Source: an uncultured Eubacteriales bacterium
GTDB lineage: Bacteria > Bacillota > Clostridia > Peptostreptococcales > Anaerovoracaceae
DNA length: 11,286 nt
Direction of reading: 5' to 3'
NCBI GenBank assembly: GCA_902766915.1
Contig: CACXFN010000104.1
Coordinates: forward strand, 1-11,286
The translations under genes were made by a program, and so were the position numbers. The notes below the pieces were generated by a model. It ran no database searches, was not told where the DNA came from, and saw nothing but the letters and a program-made list of their open reading frames with translations. Shown here piece by piece: positions 1,820-11,113 of the stretch. Every line of letters begins with the position of its first letter. Within the stretch, counting starts at the first letter, position 1.

Positions 1820-1848
1820 TTGACACCAGGGGATAATAGTGCTAACAT
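1820..1848 (+). promoter_or_regulatory. Strong sigma-A promoter upstream of the giant surface-protein gene
   Basis: Consensus TTGACA (1820-1825) and TAACAT (1843-1848) are spaced by 17 bases. Transcription should begin near 1855, about 100 bases before the giant gene's ATG. It is the only good promoter I see in the 253-base gap between the recombinase and the surface-protein gene. An intrinsic terminator hairpin begins only about 20 bases after the expected start. Confidence 0.6.
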
Positions 1849-1861: not shown

Positions 1862-1874
1862 TAATTAGGTCTAA

Positions 1875-1908
1875 GGGCCGCGAGAATAATCTCGCGGCCC
1901 TTTCTGTT
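1875..1908 (+). terminator. Intrinsic terminator or leader attenuator
   Basis: A perfect 10-bp GC-rich stem (GGGCCGCGAG at 1875-1884, CTCGCGGCCC at 1891-1900) has a 6-base AATAAT loop and is followed by TTTCTGTT. This is a textbook intrinsic terminator. It can end the recombinase transcript. Because it also lies between the promoter at 1820-1848 and the giant gene, it could end a short leader RNA of about 55 bases unless polymerase reads through. Confidence 0.85.
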
Positions 1909-1957: not shown

Positions 1958-2056
1958 ATGACAGAAAGAATAAAAAAAAGACTTGTATTGGCACTAATCG
2001 TTTCTTTGATAATGGGGCTTATGACCCCATATTATGAAATGAGTAATTCATATGCC
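1958..2056 (+). other. Signal peptide of the giant surface protein
   Basis: Residues 1-33 have a basic n-region (ERIKKR), a 14-residue hydrophobic core (LVLALIVSLIMGLM, 9-22) and a polar c-region ending SYA before SE, a good signal peptidase I site after Ala33. It marks the protein for Sec export and agrees with the C-terminal sorting signal. Confidence 0.85.
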
Positions 2057-5000
2057 TCGGAATATGAGGATGAAGAAGATGTAAATGAAATAACATCTTA
2101 CGGAGAAGAATTTAACGAAGAATCGGATAGAAGTGCTTCAAATGAAGAGTCTAGAACTGACACTTTAAGTAGCGTGATTATTAGCAGTGAAAAGGATGAT
2201 AAAGAAAGTGCGGAAGTTTTAGAAGAGGATGATAACCCTGATGAGGAAGCTTCAGAAAGTGAAAGCATTGAGGAAGTAGAAGAAAGTGACGATAGTATAG
2301 AGGATGAAGAAAATAATGATGTAATAACTATTGGTGACACATCCATATTGGATAATTTAGATTTTTCATCAAGACGTCTTATAGTGAAGGGAGAAAAATC
2401 GGTTTTCACAGAAATGGATCCCGTTATAGGTAATTATGGAGATGTTTTTCTTTTGCAGTATGATACCCAAAAGGAAGCAAAGGATGCATATATTAGGCTG
2501 AGGCAATTGACTGAGGCAGTAGAGGTTGATTCTGTAATATCAATAGCGTCAGATGATTTTTCCAATGATGTTTCCAATGATGATACTGAGCCTGAAATGA
2601 CAAAAGAAGGTATTGAGGAATTAACCAATCCTTTCAACGAATTGGATGAAATGACAAACAAAGAACTTGGTGATAGTTTTGACATTGCCATAATTGATAC
2701 AGGAGCAAAGAATGCAGATAAGATGGTTTCGGTAATCGGTGAAGATCCCATGGATTACAATGGTCATGGTCAAAGAATGGTTGATAGTATAAAAGGCATC
2801 TATCCAGATGCAAAGATACTTTCCATTAAAGCAATTGGTGATGATGGGAATGGAGACATGTCCGCTGTATATGCTGCTATTGAATATGCCCTTATTCAAA
2901 ATGTGAAGGTTATCAATCTTTCAATATCCGCATTAAGGACGGAAGATAGTTTTTTAGTCGAAGAAGCTATAGAAAAAGCCATAGATAAGGGAATAATTGT
3001 GGTCGGTGCAGCAGGTAATAATGGCCTTCCAGCAAAGGCCTTTATTCCTGGAGGAATCGAAGGCGTAATAGTTGTAGGATCATGTGATTCGGAAGGAAGG
3101 CCTCTCTCTAATTCAAATTATGGAGATACTGTGGATGTTTATGCCGAAGGAACAGGCACATCATATTCTGCAGCGAAAGTATCTGGTCTAATTGCTAAGG
3201 AAGGAATATCTATTCTCGAAGCGTATGAGAATAACACTATCCTATTTAGCATGGATGCAAAAGGCCTTGAGAAAGAGGATATGAATATGGAAGAGCAGGA
3301 AGATGAAATTGATGAAAAAGAAGAAAGTTCAGAGACATTAAGGATTATACTCCAAGGAATGACAGGATCAATCTCCATAAATGAAAAGGTTTATACCCTT
3401 AAAGAAGGAGAAAACGTAATAGATGGTCTTAAAAGAGAAGAAGTGAAGGTTAGGATTAATACAGATTCACATATTACGGGCTATGCAATAGATGGAAAGG
3501 TAAATAAATTTGGCTTTAATACGGAAATCATCGACCTTTGGGGGATGTTGGTGTCGAAGGAAATCCTGGTTTTATCAATGCCCTTTGTTAATGGATTCGG
3601 TATTTCTTCAGACTATTTTTCCGGAACAGTGACAGAAAGATATTCACAATATGATGAAGGATACAGCACATTTGAAATAAGAGCCGACGATACCGGTGAA
3701 TATATGGATGCATATTGTGCAGATAATTATGAGCACCAAATTCCGGATCTTGGGGCATCTGTATCCGGATATAGATTGGATAATTCAGATATGCTTGCCA
3801 AAATTGCATATTATGGTTATATAAACGGATATTGGGCAAGCTCAGAGTATTACGGATATATTATGTCCAGAGCATTATCAAGAGAGAATGTCGGAAATTC
3901 CTCATTCCAGTATAACAGTGAAATTGATGAGCTTATTAGTCAGGCGAGTTACGAGGATGTTCCCGATGGATTTGAAGTTTATTATATTACTGATGGTACG
4001 CCCCAGTCCATTATTACAATGAGAGGTCCAAGTATAGGAGAGATAGATCTAAGAAAGGGCTATTCCAGCGAATACGCTGAAATTATAGGAAAATTCTCCT
4101 CCTATTATGATTTAACGGGAGCTGTTTATACTGTTTATAATAACGCCGGTTTGACAGGAATTGAGGGCTATTTAACTGTGGGTTCGACCAGCTATGATGG
4201 ATATCAATATACGGATACTTTAGAAGTAGAAGCAGGCACATATTATGTTAAAGAAACAACGCCCGGAAAGGGATATAAACTGGATCCGGAAGTTTATGAG
4301 ATTTATGTAGGGGCAGGAGACTTTGAAAGAATAACGTCTATAGAGGAGCCAGAAACTGGAGAAATAAACCTGATAAAAGGATCTGTAAACCCTGAAATCA
4401 GCAATAATAATTCCTGCTACAATATGATGGGAATAAAGTATAACGTATATGCCACAAATGAAGGAACAGAAAAAGATCCTGTTTTATCAGATAAGGTGGG
4501 CGAGTTAACAATAGACTCCTACAATACTTCTAATTCAACAGGTTCATCAAATAGTTTAACCTTGCCATTGGGGGATTTTTGGATACAGGAGGATAAGCTT
4601 ACTGTGATTGGCACATCCTTTAATTGGAATCCTAAGGCAAAGAAAATTACGGTTACAGCAGATACAATCCAGACAATTGAGTTCATTGATGAATATGGGG
4701 AAATAGCAGAAGGAAGTCAGGTGAGTATGCTTCTTCTAAAAAAAGATAGTGATACTAATAAAAACCATCCTGAAGGAAACGCATCTCTTTCAAATGCGGA
4801 ATTTACTGTAAAATACTTTGATAATTACAATGGAAGTGGAACACCCCTGAGAACCTGGGTTTTCAAGACAGATGATGAAGGAAAAATAGTCTTTGGAGAT
4901 AATAGTTATTTTGTTTCCGGAGATGATCTCTATAGTGATATTAACGGAGAACCTGCTATTCCTGCCGGTTCAATTACTATTAAAGAAACTGCTTCACCAA

Positions 5001-8000
5001 TTGGATATCTTGTTGATGACTCGGAATATTTGGTTACATTTATCCAGGGAGGAGATGGAACCGTACATGGGGATAAACTATTATCAACATCAACAAAGGT
5101 AATTGATAATCTGGATGTTTCTCCCATGGATAAAGTAATACGTGGTGGTGTCAGGATAGAAAAGTGGGATAGCGCACTTAATCGCAAAGAGAGTCAAGGT
5201 GATGCGAGTCTTTCAGGTATTCAATTTGAAATAATTAACAAGAGTAAAAATGCTGTATTGGTGGATGGTAAGGAATATCAGCCTGGAGAAATTGTTAAAA
5301 TGATTGTAACAAATGAATCAGGAGAAGCCGCCACAGGAAATGATACACTACCATTTGGATCATATGAAATTAGAGAATCTGATTCAAACAACATGTATCG
5401 TTTGGTTGATGGCAGTGTTTATTCATTTGAAATTGAAGAGGATGGTAAGTGTGTTACAAAGGATAGGCTTGGAGAGAATCTTGTATTTAAAAATGAAGTT
5501 TATTCAGGTGATGTAAAAATAGAAAAATGGGATAAAGAGCTTGATGCCAAATCACCTCAGGGAGATGGAGATTTGGGAGGAATATCCTTCGAAATAATAA
5601 ATAAAAGTGCCCAGTCCGTTTATGTTGAAGGAAAGGAATATGAGCCAAACCAAGTGGTTAAAACCATCACCACAGATGAAAAGGGAGTAGCTAAAACTAC
5701 GGGAAGTATTCTTCCCTATGGAACCTATGACATTAAAGAGGTGAAGTCTAATGCAGGATATCTATTAACTGATGGCAATGCAAAAACCTTTGAAATCAGG
5801 CAGGATAATACAGAGGTTTCAAATGATATAAATGGCAATGAACTATTGTTTAAGAATAGAATTGTTAGAGGAGGAATAAGTATTGAAAAGCATGACAGGG
5901 AAAAGAATAAAAAAGAGTCTCAGGGTGATGCTGACCTGGCAGGAATTGAATTTGAAATAACCAATAAGAGCAAGTATGCAGTTTTAGTAGATGGGGTGGA
6001 ATATCAGCCCGGAAAGGTTGTAAAAACAATTGCAACAGATAAGTTCGGAAATGCTGGTACTGATCAGAATCTGCTTCCTTATGGGACATATGAAATAAAA
6101 GAGGTTAAAACCAATAATAAGTATAGATTAACAGATGGAGTTCCGAGAACTTTTACGGTAAGAGAAGAAGGCCAATTGGTAATAGATACAATTGAAGGGA
6201 ATAAAATGATCTTTAGCAATTTGGTTTTTAGAGGAGGAGTAAGAATAGAAAAATGGGATTTGGAATCGAATAAAAAGGCCCCTCAAGGAGATGGGGATTT
6301 TTCCGGAATCCAGTTTGAAATTGTAAATGCAAGTCCTCAGTCTGTAATCGTAGATAATGTTGAATATAAGAAGGGTGATGTGGTTTATGTACTTACAACT
6401 GATGCTGCAGGAAATGCTGAAACAAAAGAGGACACCCTGCCATATGGAACCTACACTATTCAGGAGGTTACATCTAATGACGCATACCTTTTAACTGATG
6501 GTGCCCTCAGATCATTTGAAATCAGGGAAGAGGGTAAGATGGTAGTAAAGGATAAGAAGGGTCAGGACTTAGTCTTCAAAGATAATGTTTCAAGAGGAGC
6601 TGTAAGGATTGAGAAATGGGATGCTGAATTAGATAGACAGGAATATCAGGGTGAAGCAGGATTCGAAGGAATAAAATTTGAACTGACGAACAGATGCAAA
6701 TATCCGGTAAAGGTTGATGGAACCTGGTACGCTCCGGGTGAAGTGATTTCCAACACGGTGCTTGTTTGCGATAAGGAAGGAAATGCTAAAACGCCAGATA
6801 GACATCTTCCCTATGGAACTTATGAAATCAAAGAGGTTGAAACTAATGAAAGCTATATGTTGACTGATGATAAACCCAGAACTTTTGAAATAAGAGAGGA
6901 TGGTGAAATAGTATTTAAGGCCAAGGATAAATCCCACGAAGGGGAAAATCTAGTGTTTAAGAATTTCCCTATAAAAGGAGGGATTAAGGCAGGAAAGATC
7001 GATAGAGAATCAGATAATAACAATCCTCAAGGTTGGGGGACTCTTGAAAATGCCGAGTTTACCATTTATTCAAATAACGAGAAGCAGGTAAAGATTAATG
7101 GAGTGGAGTATTCCAGAGACGAAGCAATTAAAGCCCTTTATTCGGATAAAAATGGATTTATTGAAAGTGAAAATGATTTACTTCCATATGGGACATACTA
7201 CATAAAGGAAACAAATGCACCTATAGGATATATTTTAAATGAAGAATGGAGAGTGGATTTTCAGATAAGAGAATATAAAGTCATCGCTGATACAACAACA
7301 GATGCAATGAAGATTGAAAAAGGTAAACCTGCCACCACCGGATGGTTTTCCGCCCTTGGAATTAGCGATACCAATCCTGCAGAAGTTCCGGATGAGATAG
7401 CAAGACTGGATATGGAATTCTTTAAAACTGATATAGATGGAGAAATAATGCCATTTATTCCATTTCTGGTTTCAAGAGTTAATAAGGACGGAGACATTAT
7501 TGAGCAGCATGTAATAGTTTCAGATGAAGATGGCAGAGTAAACACTAAGGAAAGAGATAAGACGGGAGATAAGGTAAATAGCCTTGATAAATATGTAAAG
7601 GGTGGTAAGTTCACTGACGAGAGTAAACTGGATCCGGAAGTTAATATCTGGTTTGGCGATGAAAACTATAATAAGGACAATCCCGGCAGCTTGATTTATT
7701 CACAGTACAAAATAGAAGAACTCCAGGTAGAGAAAAATAAGGGGATGGATTTGCTAAAAACCTGGCTTTATGCTGACGAAGATAACAATATGATTACTGA
7801 AATCATGGGTTATTTCAAACATGGAGATGTTAGAGACTTAAGCAATGTGTTCGTAAATCTTATTATTCATCCACAGTCTGATTTAATTGATGATGAATCC
7901 AAATCAAAGATTGCTACTATAGGAGAAAGCATAGCCGTAACAGATAAGTTCACTTATGACCATCTTAAGACAGATCAAAACTATAAGCTGTTGACAGAAA

Positions 8001-11000
8001 TATTCTATGAGGATAGAGATGGAAAGGTAAGCAAGATGGGAGAAAGCATGAGTGATATATGGAGACCAGTCAAGTCTGATTCAAATAGAACGGCTAAAGG
8101 TTATATTTACAATACTGTGGAGATTAACACTTTAGGATTAGAGGGAGGAACTATTAATGCAGTAGATACCCTTTACTCTGAAATAAATGGAGAATACATA
8201 GAATTAACAAAGCATAATTCAAATCTGGATGTTGAATCCCAGAAAATATATGTCCCATGGATGAAGACAAATGCTGCAGATATAAAAACAAAAGATCACA
8301 TTGGAGCAGTAGATAAGGTGTCGGAAATAGTCGATAAAGTTAAATATGAAAATTTAGGGGATAAAAAAGTTTATCTATTTGTTGGTGAACTAAGAGATGC
8401 TGAAAGCGGTGAGTTAATAAAGGACATAGATGGAAAGGATGCCGTTGTGGAAAAAGTGCTTAGAGTATCTTGGGAAATTGATGGCATGGAAGAAAAGTCA
8501 TATGGTCTTATTGGTCCAAAGGATGGAGAGGTGGAGATGCCCGCCTTTAAAATTAATGGAAGAATGTATGAGGGAAGAACTCTTGTTGTAACTGAGAGAC
8601 TATTTGACTATGACAGGGACATCGAGATAATTAGGCATGATTCTTTAATGGATGAGGATCAAAGTGTCCATTATCCAAGGGTTCGAACTAAGGCAATAGA
8701 CAATAATACAGAAAGCCACACTGCGGTTGTGGGGAAAACAGTTATTAAAGATGAAGTAATTATAGAAAATACAATTCCCGGGGAAACATATGTAGTTAAA
8801 GGAGAACTGAGATATCAGTCTGATGGTGTGGATGCTAATGGTAATAGATTTGCAAAGGGCCATGTCATTAAGTCTCATGAAGGAGTTTCTATTAAGGCAA
8901 CTGAATCGATTACAAAAGTGGTCCTTGAATTTGAAGTAGATGCAGCTTTACTGGAAGGAGTTTCAGGGGTTGTATTTGAAAATCTTTATCACAATGATAT
9001 TCTTGTGGCTTTGCATCATGACATTGAGGATGAGTCGCAAACTGTCAACTTTCCTAAGGTAAGAACTACAGCATTTGATTCAGAAACCATGGGTCATACA
9101 GGTATAGTAGGAGATAATGTAAATATAATAGATAGTGTTAGTTTAAGCAATTTAACGGTTGGTGATAAATATAGGGTGTGTGGAACCCTCATGACAAAGG
9201 ATGGGAAGGCATTTTTGGTTGATGGAGAACCCCTAGTTCGTGAAACAGAATTGTTTGTTGCAGAAGAAAAGAATATGACGAAGGAACTCCGGTTTACCTT
9301 CGATTCAACAAATCTTGCCGGGGATAGCCTGGTGGTCTTTGAGAAATTAATACATGTTATAGAAGCTATGGGTGAATCAGGTTCAACGGTTAAAGAAACT
9401 GAGGTGGCAAGACATGAAGACTTAAATGACGAAGGACAAAGGGTTGATTATCCTGATATACATACAAATGCAACTGATTCAAAAACCGGAGACGAGGTCG
9501 GAACAGTTGGAGATAAGGAGATAATTGTTGATAAGGTAAGCTACAAGAATCTCATAATCGGAGAAACTTATAAAGTCGAGGGTAATCTCCATTATAAGGA
9601 TGAGTCTGAGAGGCACGAAAAGGGAGAATTGGTTCTTGATGAAAATGGAGAGCCTTATACTGCTTCCATAACCTTTATTCCTGAGGAGGAAGACGGTTTC
9701 GTAAATCTGGTTTATCATGTGAATAGCCAGGTCCTTAGAGGTGAATCAATTGTTGTATTTGAGGATTTGTATAGTAATGGTATTAGGGTTATTTCACATA
9801 GTGATATAAATGATGATGACCAAAGAATAGACTATCCCGAAGTAAGAACGACTGCATTATCAAAGAAATCAGGTAATCATGTAGGTGATAGTGATGAAGT
9901 ATCTACAATAATTGATACTGTTGAACTCGTCAATCTCACAGTTGGTAAAACTTATAAGGTTTCAGGTATTTTAATGGATAAGGAAAGTGGTGAACCTGTG
10001 TTAGATATAAATGGGAAACCTATAGAAGCTAAAACAGAGGAATTCCTGGCTGATAAAAATAATATGACTGTGAATATGGAGTTTAAATTAGATGGAAGTA
10101 AAAGAGAGTCCAAGACCACGGTTGTGTTTGAACAATTAATTCATAATGATGTGGTAGTAAGTTATCATGCGGATATAGAGGATGAAGCGCAGTCTGTCTA
10201 TACACCTAAGATTAAAACAAAGGCAATTGACGCGGAGACTGATGATCGGATAGGACGACCAAGAGAAGAGACCATAATAATTGATACCGTTTATTACGAA
10301 AACCTTATACCAGGAATACTGTATAAGGTGGAAGGCCTTCTAATGGATAAAAAAACCGGTGAATCCTATATCGACGGAGATGGTAAAAAAGTTAGGTCAG
10401 AATCACAACCTTTCACCGTAGAGAAGGGGAAAAAAAGTGGAACAATTGATATAAAGTTTGTGTTTAATGGCACTAACCTAAAGGGAACCACGGTTGTAGC
10501 ATTCGAAGATCTTATCCATAATGAGGTGATTGTAACCGCACATCATGATATTAATGATGATGATCAATCAGTTCAGTATCCCGATGGAAAAACGGAAGCA
10601 AGAGATGCCAAAACAAATACTAAAGAAATGGAAATAGGTAAGAAAACTACGATTATAGATACAGTTTACTATGAGAATCTTTTGCCCGGAAAGGAATATT
10701 ATTTATCCGGAATATTGATGGATAAGAATACAAATAAGCCGCTAATTGCAAATGGAAAGGAGGTAATTAATAGTATTAAGTTTACTCCAAAAGAGAAAGA
10801 TGGAAAGATTGAACTTGAATTCGTTTTTGATTCCTCACAATTGTCAGATGGTAAAATAGTTGTGTTTGAGGATGTTAAATATAAGGGAATACCAGTGTTT
10901 TCACATAAAGATATTAATTCGGCGGAACAAAGCATAGCTATTAAAACCCCTGAGAAACCTGAAATACCCAATACACCGCCCAGAGAAAATGTGCCGAAGA

Positions 11001-11113
11001 ATAGAAATATACCGGAAACAGGCGATAAGGAGAGTTTTCTGATGAGCTTGCTGTTCTTACAGGTTGCCCTATTAGGCCTTTTCTCAACAATTAGATTGAG
11101 CATTGACGAATAA
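1958..11113 (+). CDS. Giant cell-wall-anchored S8 protease / CnaB / VaFE (T-Q ester) surface protein
   Basis: A 3051-residue secreted protein. Order of parts: signal peptide (1-33, predicted cut after SYA); acidic linker (34-138); propeptide-like segment starting RRLIVKG (139-198); subtilisin-like protease (about 236-425, Asp247, His270, Asn354, Ser402); thioester-domain-like module (about 554-690, Cys587); three divergent SpaA/CnaB domains (about 693-790, 801-912, 918-1045); six tandem CnaB domains (1062-1780); VaFE-protein core with WFG at 1898-1900 (1817-1967); eight T-Q ester-bond domains (1968-2998); Pro-rich spacer; IPETG (3018-3022), one membrane segment and a short tail. CnaB and T-Q domains form internal Lys-Asn and Thr-Gln bonds that stiffen surface rods. 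The ATG has AAAGGAG 8 bases upstream. The likely role is host or surface adhesion combined with proteolysis, as a protein covalently fixed to peptidoglycan by sortase. Architecture is clear; target and function are inferred. Confidence 0.92.
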   Translation: MTERIKKRLVLALIVSLIMGLMTPYYEMSNSYASEYEDEEDVNEITSYGEEFNEESDRSASNEESRTDTLSSVIISSEKDDKESAEVLEEDDNPDEEASESESIEEVEESDDSIEDEENNDVITIGDTSILDNLDFSSRRLIVKGEKSVFTEMDPVIGNYGDVFLLQYDTQKEAKDAYIRLRQLTEAVEVDSVISIASDDFSNDVSNDDTEPEMTKEGIEELTNPFNELDEMTNKELGDSFDIAIIDTGAKNADKMVSVIGEDPMDYNGHGQRMVDSIKGIYPDAKILSIKAIGDDGNGDMSAVYAAIEYALIQNVKVINLSISALRTEDSFLVEEAIEKAIDKGIIVVGAAGNNGLPAKAFIPGGIEGVIVVGSCDSEGRPLSNSNYGDTVDVYAEGTGTSYSAAKVSGLIAKEGISILEAYENNTILFSMDAKGLEKEDMNMEEQEDEIDEKEESSETLRIILQGMTGSISINEKVYTLKEGENVIDGLKREEVKVRINTDSHITGYAIDGKVNKFGFNTEIIDLWGMLVSKEILVLSMPFVNGFGISSDYFSGTVTERYSQYDEGYSTFEIRADDTGEYMDAYCADNYEHQIPDLGASVSGYRLDNSDMLAKIAYYGYINGYWASSEYYGYIMSRALSRENVGNSSFQYNSEIDELISQASYEDVPDGFEVYYITDGTPQSIITMRGPSIGEIDLRKGYSSEYAEIIGKFSSYYDLTGAVYTVYNNAGLTGIEGYLTVGSTSYDGYQYTDTLEVEAGTYYVKETTPGKGYKLDPEVYEIYVGAGDFERITSIEEPETGEINLIKGSVNPEISNNNSCYNMMGIKYNVYATNEGTEKDPVLSDKVGELTIDSYNTSNSTGSSNSLTLPLGDFWIQEDKLTVIGTSFNWNPKAKKITVTADTIQTIEFIDEYGEIAEGSQVSMLLLKKDSDTNKNHPEGNASLSNAEFTVKYFDNYNGSGTPLRTWVFKTDDEGKIVFGDNSYFVSGDDLYSDINGEPAIPAGSITIKETASPIGYLVDDSEYLVTFIQGGDGTVHGDKLLSTSTKVIDNLDVSPMDKVIRGGVRIEKWDSALNRKESQGDASLSGIQFEIINKSKNAVLVDGKEYQPGEIVKMIVTNESGEAATGNDTLPFGSYEIRESDSNNMYRLVDGSVYSFEIEEDGKCVTKDRLGENLVFKNEVYSGDVKIEKWDKELDAKSPQGDGDLGGISFEIINKSAQSVYVEGKEYEPNQVVKTITTDEKGVAKTTGSILPYGTYDIKEVKSNAGYLLTDGNAKTFEIRQDNTEVSNDINGNELLFKNRIVRGGISIEKHDREKNKKESQGDADLAGIEFEITNKSKYAVLVDGVEYQPGKVVKTIATDKFGNAGTDQNLLPYGTYEIKEVKTNNKYRLTDGVPRTFTVREEGQLVIDTIEGNKMIFSNLVFRGGVRIEKWDLESNKKAPQGDGDFSGIQFEIVNASPQSVIVDNVEYKKGDVVYVLTTDAAGNAETKEDTLPYGTYTIQEVTSNDAYLLTDGALRSFEIREEGKMVVKDKKGQDLVFKDNVSRGAVRIEKWDAELDRQEYQGEAGFEGIKFELTNRCKYPVKVDGTWYAPGEVISNTVLVCDKEGNAKTPDRHLPYGTYEIKEVETNESYMLTDDKPRTFEIREDGEIVFKAKDKSHEGENLVFKNFPIKGGIKAGKIDRESDNNNPQGWGTLENAEFTIYSNNEKQVKINGVEYSRDEAIKALYSDKNGFIESENDLLPYGTYYIKETNAPIGYILNEEWRVDFQIREYKVIADTTTDAMKIEKGKPATTGWFSALGISDTNPAEVPDEIARLDMEFFKTDIDGEIMPFIPFLVSRVNKDGDIIEQHVIVSDEDGRVNTKERDKTGDKVNSLDKYVKGGKFTDESKLDPEVNIWFGDENYNKDNPGSLIYSQYKIEELQVEKNKGMDLLKTWLYADEDNNMITEIMGYFKHGDVRDLSNVFVNLIIHPQSDLIDDESKSKIATIGESIAVTDKFTYDHLKTDQNYKLLTEIFYEDRDGKVSKMGESMSDIWRPVKSDSNRTAKGYIYNTVEINTLGLEGGTINAVDTLYSEINGEYIELTKHNSNLDVESQKIYVPWMKTNAADIKTKDHIGAVDKVSEIVDKVKYENLGDKKVYLFVGELRDAESGELIKDIDGKDAVVEKVLRVSWEIDGMEEKSYGLIGPKDGEVEMPAFKINGRMYEGRTLVVTERLFDYDRDIEIIRHDSLMDEDQSVHYPRVRTKAIDNNTESHTAVVGKTVIKDEVIIENTIPGETYVVKGELRYQSDGVDANGNRFAKGHVIKSHEGVSIKATESITKVVLEFEVDAALLEGVSGVVFENLYHNDILVALHHDIEDESQTVNFPKVRTTAFDSETMGHTGIVGDNVNIIDSVSLSNLTVGDKYRVCGTLMTKDGKAFLVDGEPLVRETELFVAEEKNMTKELRFTFDSTNLAGDSLVVFEKLIHVIEAMGESGSTVKETEVARHEDLNDEGQRVDYPDIHTNATDSKTGDEVGTVGDKEIIVDKVSYKNLIIGETYKVEGNLHYKDESERHEKGELVLDENGEPYTASITFIPEEEDGFVNLVYHVNSQVLRGESIVVFEDLYSNGIRVISHSDINDDDQRIDYPEVRTTALSKKSGNHVGDSDEVSTIIDTVELVNLTVGKTYKVSGILMDKESGEPVLDINGKPIEAKTEEFLADKNNMTVNMEFKLDGSKRESKTTVVFEQLIHNDVVVSYHADIEDEAQSVYTPKIKTKAIDAETDDRIGRPREETIIIDTVYYENLIPGILYKVEGLLMDKKTGESYIDGDGKKVRSESQPFTVEKGKKSGTIDIKFVFNGTNLKGTTVVAFEDLIHNEVIVTAHHDINDDDQSVQYPDGKTEARDAKTNTKEMEIGKKTTIIDTVYYENLLPGKEYYLSGILMDKNTNKPLIANGKEVINSIKFTPKEKDGKIELEFVFDSSQLSDGKIVVFEDVKYKGIPVFSHKDINSAEQSIAIKTPEKPEIPNTPPRENVPKNRNIPETGDKESFLMSLLFLQVALLGLFSTIRLSIDE
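2057..2371 (+). other. Highly acidic N-terminal linker
   Basis: By my count 41 of the first 94 mature residues (34-127) are Asp or Glu, with Ser and Asn making up much of the rest and no repeats of fixed length. It is probably disordered. A second shorter acidic patch (about 436-460, EEQEDEIDEKEE) follows the protease domain, so the catalytic unit is bracketed by acidic linkers. Confidence 0.75.
2372..3232 (+). other. Propeptide-like segment and subtilisin-like (S8) protease domain
   Basis: Residues 139-198 begin RRLIVKG and continue with a segment containing LLQYDTQKEAKDAY, resembling the inhibitory propeptide of large clostridial S8 proteases. The catalytic domain has Asp247 in IAIIDTG, His270 in YNGHGQRM, oxyanion Asn354 in GAAGNNG, and Ser402 in GTGTSYSAAKVSG. 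All four key positions are therefore present. Spacings (Asp to His 23, His to Asn 84, Asn to Ser 48) are shorter than in classical subtilisin (32, 91 and 66), so surface loops have been lost. Family logic suggests autoprocessing of the propeptide after export, leaving the protease at the tip of an anchored stalk. Confidence 0.85.
3617..4027 (+). other. Thioester-domain-like module lacking the TQ partner
   Basis: The segment MDAYCADNYEHQIPD (Cys587), then IAYYGYINGYW and YYGYIMSRALS (636-641 is MSRALS), follows the layout of thioester adhesin domains: an aromatic-Cys motif, a GY-rich middle, then a TQxAIW-like helix. In true thioester domains the Gln of TQ bonds to the Cys. Here that position aligns with Ser637 or Arg638. 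The fold assignment is by motif order and is moderate; loss of thioester chemistry is inferred. Confidence 0.55.
4031..5092 (+). other. Three divergent SpaA/CnaB-type domains
   Basis: Domain 1 starts GEIDLRKG (Lys699) and has the typical Glu motif YYVKETTPGKGY. Domain 2 starts GEINLIKG (Lys807) and has a weaker Glu motif, DFWIQEDK. Domain 3 starts SMLLLKKD (Lys928/929) and has ITIKETASPIGY. These are the Lys and Glu positions expected of isopeptide-forming CnaB folds. They share little sequence with each other or with the regular array that follows. Confidence 0.7.
5141..7282 (+). repeat. Six tandem CnaB domains, exact 363-bp period in the first five
   Basis: Repeat starts at the RGG-x-x-IEKWD motif fall at residues 1062, 1183, 1304, 1425, 1546 and 1673, giving steps of 121, 121, 121, 121 and 127. 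Each has the Lys of IEKWD, a QGD/QGE segment, LPYGTYEIKE with the catalytic Glu, and a C-terminal FKN (Asn partner), as in CnaB isopeptide domains; in repeat 1 these are Lys1069, Glu1140 and Asn1179. Repeat 4 ends FKD, where Asp could replace Asn. Repeat 6 reads AGKID and lacks a clear FKN. DNA copies have diverged, so the array is old rather than a fresh tandem duplication. Confidence 0.88.
7406..7858 (+). other. VaFE-protein core domain between the two arrays
   Basis: Residues 1817-1967 begin LDMEFFKTDIDG and contain EQHVIVSDEDGRVNT, NIWFGDEN (Trp1898) and SLIYSQYKIEELQVEKNKG. This order (K-x-D strand, E/Q-H-x-I with a DE-G turn, WFG, L-x-Y-x-Y-x-I-x-EL) matches the module that precedes T-Q repeats in VaFE-repeat surface proteins of Clostridia, from my knowledge of the family. 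No catalytic role is known to me. Confidence 0.6.
7859..10951 (+). repeat. Eight tandem T-Q ester-bond (VaFE) domains
   Basis: Seven copies carry the N-terminal Thr in a [R/K/H]-T-x-A motif at residues 2104, 2244, 2370, 2503, 2631, 2754 and 2879 (steps 123-140). Each has an Asp before a V-x-Y/L strand, a VFE-like motif (VTE in copy 2, VAFE in copy 7), a His 8 residues before the end, and the C-terminal Gln (DEDQ, DESQ, DEGQ, DDDQ, DEAQ, DDDQ, SAEQ; the last is Gln2991). These are the residues needed for the Thr-Gln ester crosslink described for clostridial adhesins. The first copy (from 1968) has Pro in place of Thr, AVD in place of VFE and a displaced His, so it probably forms no ester bond. 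Confidence 0.85.
10952..11113 (+). other. Proline-rich wall spacer and IPETG sortase sorting signal
   Basis: After the last T-Q domain comes a Pro/Asn/Lys-rich spacer, then IPETG (3018-3022), a hydrophobic segment of about 18 residues (SFLMSLLFLQVALLGLFS) and the tail TIRLSIDE. The order pentapeptide, membrane span, tail is that of sortase substrates, and Ile in place of Leu is a known clostridial variant. The tail has one Arg and ends acidic, unlike the usual Lys/Arg-rich stop. Confidence 0.85.

Follow-up and report, generated by a model that had tools for sequence, protein, structure and literature searches.

A predicted giant CnaB/T-Q surface protein of an uncultured Eubacteriales bacterium with a putative self-maturing subtilisin-like head

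Introduction

What might a subtilisin-like head do at the end of a giant, adhesin-like stalk? The question is raised by an 11,286-nucleotide (nt) stretch of DNA (the window) from an uncultured Eubacteriales bacterium, one entire contig (C104) of a 1.44-Mb draft genome that is 77% complete. Its forward strand holds a single open frame of 3051 amino acids (1958..11113), in which a signal peptide, an acidic linker, a propeptide, an S8 protease head, a thioester-like module, a SpaA/CnaB stalk, a T-Q stalk, an IPETG motif and a hydrophobic tail follow one another. Adhesion is the role commonly assumed for giant CnaB/T-Q proteins. If dozens of them bear a self-maturing protease head, part of the class would consist of enzymes whose substrates are host or microbial proteins at a distance from the wall, and a protease set before a thioester-like domain would bring cutting and covalent gripping side by side. 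We suggest that the protein is a tip-mounted S8 protease that first removes its propeptide and afterwards cleaves a single protein or a small number of proteins that the stalk can reach, a reading that we regard as probable, though far from certain.

An S8 core behind its own propeptide

The assignment of the head to the S8 family is not due to chance, since Pfam Peptidase_S8 (PF00082) matched residues 275-414 with an E value of 1.9e-20 (73.8 bits against a cut-off of 21.8) and subtilisin BPN' was its top PDB sequence match (E 4.8e-19). Pfam, the PDB match, alignment and a structure model together place the catalytic core at residues about 240-430 (2675..3247, + strand). The four key positions named in an earlier note on this DNA are all there: Asp247 (2696-2698), His270 (2765-2767) and Ser402 (3161-3163) form the triad in the expected order, and Asn354 (3017-3019) is the oxyanion residue. 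The predicted model of the head has the subtilisin fold and aligns end to end with pro-subtilisins, its closest folds being pro-subtilisin E and pro-Tk-subtilisin, propeptide included. These enzymes are secreted and are not known to carry a stalk, and they differ from the head in having the classical GTSMAxP loop.

Because the model aligns from its first residue with unautoprocessed pro-subtilisins, an I9-type propeptide fold is predicted ahead of the core (residues 139-197, 2372..2548, + strand); Pfam I9 gave no match at E<=1 in a scan of the whole protein. The end of this segment is conserved. Among 65 related domains that include it, the position of our residue 197 is Ala in 41 and Ser in 14, position 196 is Val in 27 and Ile in 22, and position 194 is Phe, Ile, Val, Leu or Met in 63. 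We infer that the propeptide is removed by self-cleavage near Ala197. The earlier note had recognised the S8 part and placed the end of the protein correctly at 11113, but it began at 2372, which is residue 139; the frame opens at 1958, and what had been overlooked is a signal peptide (residues about 1-34, 1958..2059, by eye), an acidic low-complexity linker (residues 35-136, 2060..2365) and the propeptide itself.

The head recurs in a family of giant proteins

A search with the head alone, restricted to proteins of about 1680-5340 amino acids, gave 161 matches, all but the 41 weakest of which were listed. The best 75 of the 161 (own protein included, E down to 2e-22) have in common a module of about 280 residues, and in 71 of these 75 giants the match extends into the propeptide part. 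By hand count from a precomputed table, 65 of them are labelled SpaA and 47 T-Q, and only 21 carry the S8 label PF00082. Sources named among the matches listed include Chordicoccus sp., Eubacterium ruminantium, Bilifractor sp. and Ruminococcus sp. 5_1_39BFAA. With the same head on 75 giants, an architecture unique to the window is ruled out, and CnaB/VaFE giants cannot safely be presumed to look like pure adhesins. The earlier note had raised the prospect that the architecture is common and already described; common it is, but no description of CnaB/T-Q or TIE (thioester, isopeptide, ester) proteins with an S8 head was found in the literature covered, outside which subscription papers and preprints lay. 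Sortase-anchored subtilases are already known, as are TIE proteins.

Conservation within this family is what would be expected of an enzyme. Seven rows of <=150 residues were left out of 86 aligned rows, giving 79 domains, and 45 further rows (P0076-P0120) were excluded from the family counts. Asp, His and Ser are each conserved in 78 of the 79 domains and Asn in 75. In 63 non-redundant cores with a mean pairwise identity of 47%, the triad columns are among the most conserved, whereas the most frequent residue of the median column reaches 59% of rows. Such conservation is what selection for catalysis would produce, and it does not name a substrate.

Four giants (P0002, P0003, P0004 and P0005) have two S8 modules. 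The second core of the first three sits far along the stalk, between residues 1580 and 2133, and has no propeptide; in P0005, an additional head at residues 64-312, before the first, has lost the triad and is the sole triad exception among the 79 domains. In P0016 and P0030, the module right after the S8 head resembles a cysteine peptidase (NlpC/CHAP-type) by eye, so there may be tips with two enzymes. The 45 proteins P0076-P0120, most of them of 2506 amino acids, have S8 on a Flg_new/PF08481 stalk. No clear complete free-standing enzyme was seen among 32 shorter matches (7991 best candidates scored), several of which lie on short contigs and were not each resolved; structure modelling took in 20 of the 32.

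A thioester-like module follows the head

The earlier note's thioester-like module, at residues 548-706 (3599..4075, + strand), is supported by its sequence as a relative of thioester domains, although the Pfam evidence is mixed. TED_2 matches within it at E 5.1e-4 and 20.4 bits, below the cut-off of 27, and the whole-protein Pfam scan gave no TED at E<=1. Frames in other genomes of the bacterial family yielded six relatives of the module, with E values from 3e-10 to 9e-7. Cys587 (3716-3718) and Gln683 (4004-4006) are invariant in all seven sequences, two of which match TED_2. According to PMC6194298 and PMC4450167, Cys and Gln are the only universally conserved residues of thioester domains, which makes Cys587 and Gln683 the candidate bond-forming pair. 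The same sources describe a helical TQxxW motif whose Gln and Trp are not essential, the bond being made by another Gln. The window's module lacks this motif; a rough TQxAIW-type pattern occurred in 3 of 98 proteins and was absent from ours.

A protein-database search with residues 450-700 found only the query itself (2013 candidates sharing short words), a profile search of the PDB found as its sole match an unrelated antigen (E 0.0053), and a single-sequence structure model was unusable, with a mean predicted local distance difference test score of 36.4. The six relatives (L066-L071), also surface proteins from this bacterial family, have the invariant Cys and Gln and lack TQxxW; they may form a divergent thioester subgroup that TED_2 barely detects. 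The module is close to the N-terminus in four of the six (L067, L068, L069 and L071), and in the window's protein the protease stands in front of it. With a profile of the module, 12 of the 98 proteins, our own included, showed it behind the head at E<0.01.

A stalk with isopeptide and ester motifs

Behind the module, eight Pfam SpaA stretches span residues about 695-1800 (4040..7357, + strand). The nine CnaB domains of the earlier note are thus plausible without being exact, as the lysine/glutamate motifs for isopeptide bonds that are present in these stretches number nine or ten by eye. Its eight T-Q domains were borne out, with eight found by Pfam and eight VaFE domains by NCBIfam at residues about 1975-2995 (7880..10942, + strand), and so was its IPETG motif (residues 3018-3022, 11009..11023, + strand), which is followed by a hydrophobic stretch to about 11092. 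One sortase gene was found in the genome.

We infer from this layout that the protein is a TIE-type surface protein and a 'fibrillar enzyme' as PMC9210967 uses the term. It shares with TIE proteins, as PMC4450167 and PMC6194298 present them, a thioester-like domain, a CnaB and T-Q stalk and a C-terminal sorting motif in one chain; it differs in that their thioester domains are almost always N-terminal, whereas here a pro-subtilase comes first. It shares with the fibrillar enzymes a long repeat-stalk in which an enzymatic region replaces the adhesive one, but its enzyme is an S8 protease with its own propeptide, and neither 'subtilase' nor 'PF00082' appears in the passages of PMC9210967 examined.

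Cell-envelope proteinases and proteins of the C5a-peptidase type are likewise sortase-anchored, with an N-terminal subtilisin domain, and they carry PA and Fn3 domains. In contrast, the window's protein has a compact core on a CnaB/T-Q stalk, and neither PA nor Fn3 was matched by Pfam at E<=1 anywhere in its length.

A proposed protease at the tip, and what weighs against it

We propose that the chain would be secreted and then anchored by sortase at IPETG, and that isopeptide and ester bonds would stiffen its stalk, which would leave the head farthest from the wall. The head would clip its propeptide near Ala197 and then act in trans on proteins near the stalk tip; a thioester, if one forms, would grip an amine of the target as the protease cleaves close to it. 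The earlier note's idea of a tethered protease fits the intact triad and oxyanion Asn, the pro-subtilisin fold, the N-terminal position, the sorting motif and the retention of the triad in a divergent family. What falls away is its starting premise of pure adhesins.

Several observations weigh against this reading, among them those on the serine loop. The window's own loop, GTSYSAA, has Gly219 and lacks Pro225 (the codon of Ala406, equivalent to position 225, is at 3173-3175, + strand), and thus departs from G-T-S-x-[SA]-x-P, the classical subtilisin serine-site pattern. Across the 79 aligned domains the loop is mostly (S/T)-T-S-E-A-A-A as against the classical G-T-S-M-A-x-P: position 225 is Ala in 78, Ser in one and Pro in none, and Gly219 occurs in the window's protein only. 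Ala225 is also found in PCSK9, which is not known to cut anything but itself. The S1 strand of the head is SxSA and differs from the classical SLG. With Pro225 and usually Gly219 absent and the S1 strand altered, activity in trans may be weak. Four of the 75 giants, and the genus relative G144, have no recognisable propeptide. On the side of anchoring, an LPXTG-like motif is present in only 32 of the 75 giants (loose pattern, last 60 residues), and the tail of our own protein, past its hydrophobic stretch, contains a single Arg, lacks a basic cluster and ends in Asp-Glu, so attachment to the wall is only predicted; most giants without the motif end, by eye, in a hydrophobic stretch and a basic tail.

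The loop GTSYSAA is also that of all 45 proteins P0076-P0120. An outgroup of 32 frames (three repeats, 29 distinct) was read with a pattern that presupposed G-T/N-S; L014 (contig end) and L018 (none found) were unread, and the 27 readable distinct loops comprised 25 with Pro225, one with Ala (Paenibacillus) and one with Ser (L027). The altered loop of the family, with Ala225 and with Gly219 nearly absent, suggests a head of narrow specificity or slow turnover. An Ala225 loop, as in PCSK9, bears directly on whether such a head is a protease, a one-shot self-cutter or a ligase.

The one-shot self-cutter is the rival that we take most seriously, while thinking it unlikely. In it, a head like that of PCSK9 or clostridial CspB would cut its propeptide once, keep it in the cleft and serve from then on as a binding tip. 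Propeptide, S8 fold and, for PCSK9, Ala225 are shared, and both proteins retain the propeptide after self-cleavage (PMC3567191); but PCSK9 differs in having kept Gly219, and pro-subtilisins of ordinary active enzymes were slightly better matches to the model. Neither PCSK9 nor CspB is known to sit on a stalk. That the head should instead be a natural peptide ligase, passing its acyl-enzyme to an amine and stitching the tip to other proteins, seems to us very improbable. Its attraction is that Ala225, present in 78 of 79 domains, is the change combined with S221C in subtiligase, where position 225 governs the balance of synthesis and hydrolysis and the ratio of the two in a Cys221 enzyme was 0.2 with Pro225 and 4.5 with Ala225 (PMC7921005). 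The nucleophile here is Ser and not Cys, however. PCSK9 has Ala225 too and is not known to act as a ligase. Loss of the classical serine loop could also point to a catalytically dead, subtilase-derived scaffold, yet a triad kept in 78 of 79 domains, against a median column whose top residue reaches 59% of non-redundant rows, leaves that reading little credit.

Two further alternatives turn the protease on its own chain. It might shield the thioester domain until cleavage of the chain between them uncovers it, much as proteolysis activates the complement thioester proteins. The S8 head does precede a module with both candidate bond-forming residues, of a kind almost always N-terminal (PMC4450167); the core is followed at about residues 430-460 by an acidic segment that is probably flexible, and the tandem recurs. 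Thioester-like modules follow the head in only 12 of 98 proteins, however, which makes thioester gating unlikely as a general role, though it may hold here, and we judge the idea improbable overall. Its fullest form would be a self-arming covalent harpoon, in which the head frees itself of its propeptide and cuts before the thioester domain, and the thioester, exposed at the right place alone, bonds the crosslinked stalk to its target, by analogy with complement C3 and its convertase in one chain; to this we give an equally small chance. A head that mainly trims its own stalk or adjacent copies, shedding the tip or setting fibre length, is more doubtful still: one chain holds enzyme and stalk, and acidic low-complexity stretches flank the head, but crosslinked CnaB and T-Q domains are generally held to resist proteases. 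Our preferred reading is the tip-mounted, self-maturing protease of narrow specificity.

Distribution

At E<=1e-30 the head was matched in 10 of 393 genomes of the order. The family loop is present in the three of these ten that are from the window's genus; of the remaining seven, six show GTS..P loops, and in G120 the contig ends before the loop. Residues 139-714 found matches in 115 of the 296 genomes of the bacterial family, some of them through the thioester-like part only; G065 and G038 are examples of matches to that part. A scan of named genomes yielded only a Paenibacillus S8 with 32% identity. Seven of 13 listed genomes of the genus matched, our own included: five others have a readable core with intact catalytic residues, and in G231, where the contig ends, the propeptide alone is visible. 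Among the six non-matching genomes, G011, G095 and G175 reach a completeness of at least 90% with contamination of 1%, and G261 is 93% complete with 8%, so the gene looks accessory. Stalk domains differ among the three genus relatives scanned.

Neighbouring genes and leader

Upstream of the giant frame lie a NUDIX gene (214-756) and a XerD-like recombinase (814-1704). In the window, as in G267 and G144, the gene lies 3' of xerD; other genes precede it in G219, G202 and G248. A promoter-like site, TTGACA-17-TAACAT (1820..1848, + strand), scores 10 of 12; seven such sites occur across the stretch against 1.9 expected, and sites that look alike by eye precede the gene in four relatives. Between it and the start codon is a GC-rich hairpin with a short T-rich tail (1873..1902, + strand), and the 76-base leader stretch has a folding z of -5.6. 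The terminator scan did not call the hairpin and Rfam gave nothing above gathering for the leader; a weak antisense sraA match, and another genomic match of the hairpin pattern inside a serine-tRNA-ligase-like frame, were taken as chance. The order of promoter-like site and hairpin was not found in the stretch read from G202. It is the same before the gene in G267, G144, G219 and G248, though the upstream gene differs, and the region looks like a leader or attenuator belonging to the giant gene. The stem is nearly the same in G267, and other stems occupy the position in G144, G219 and G248.
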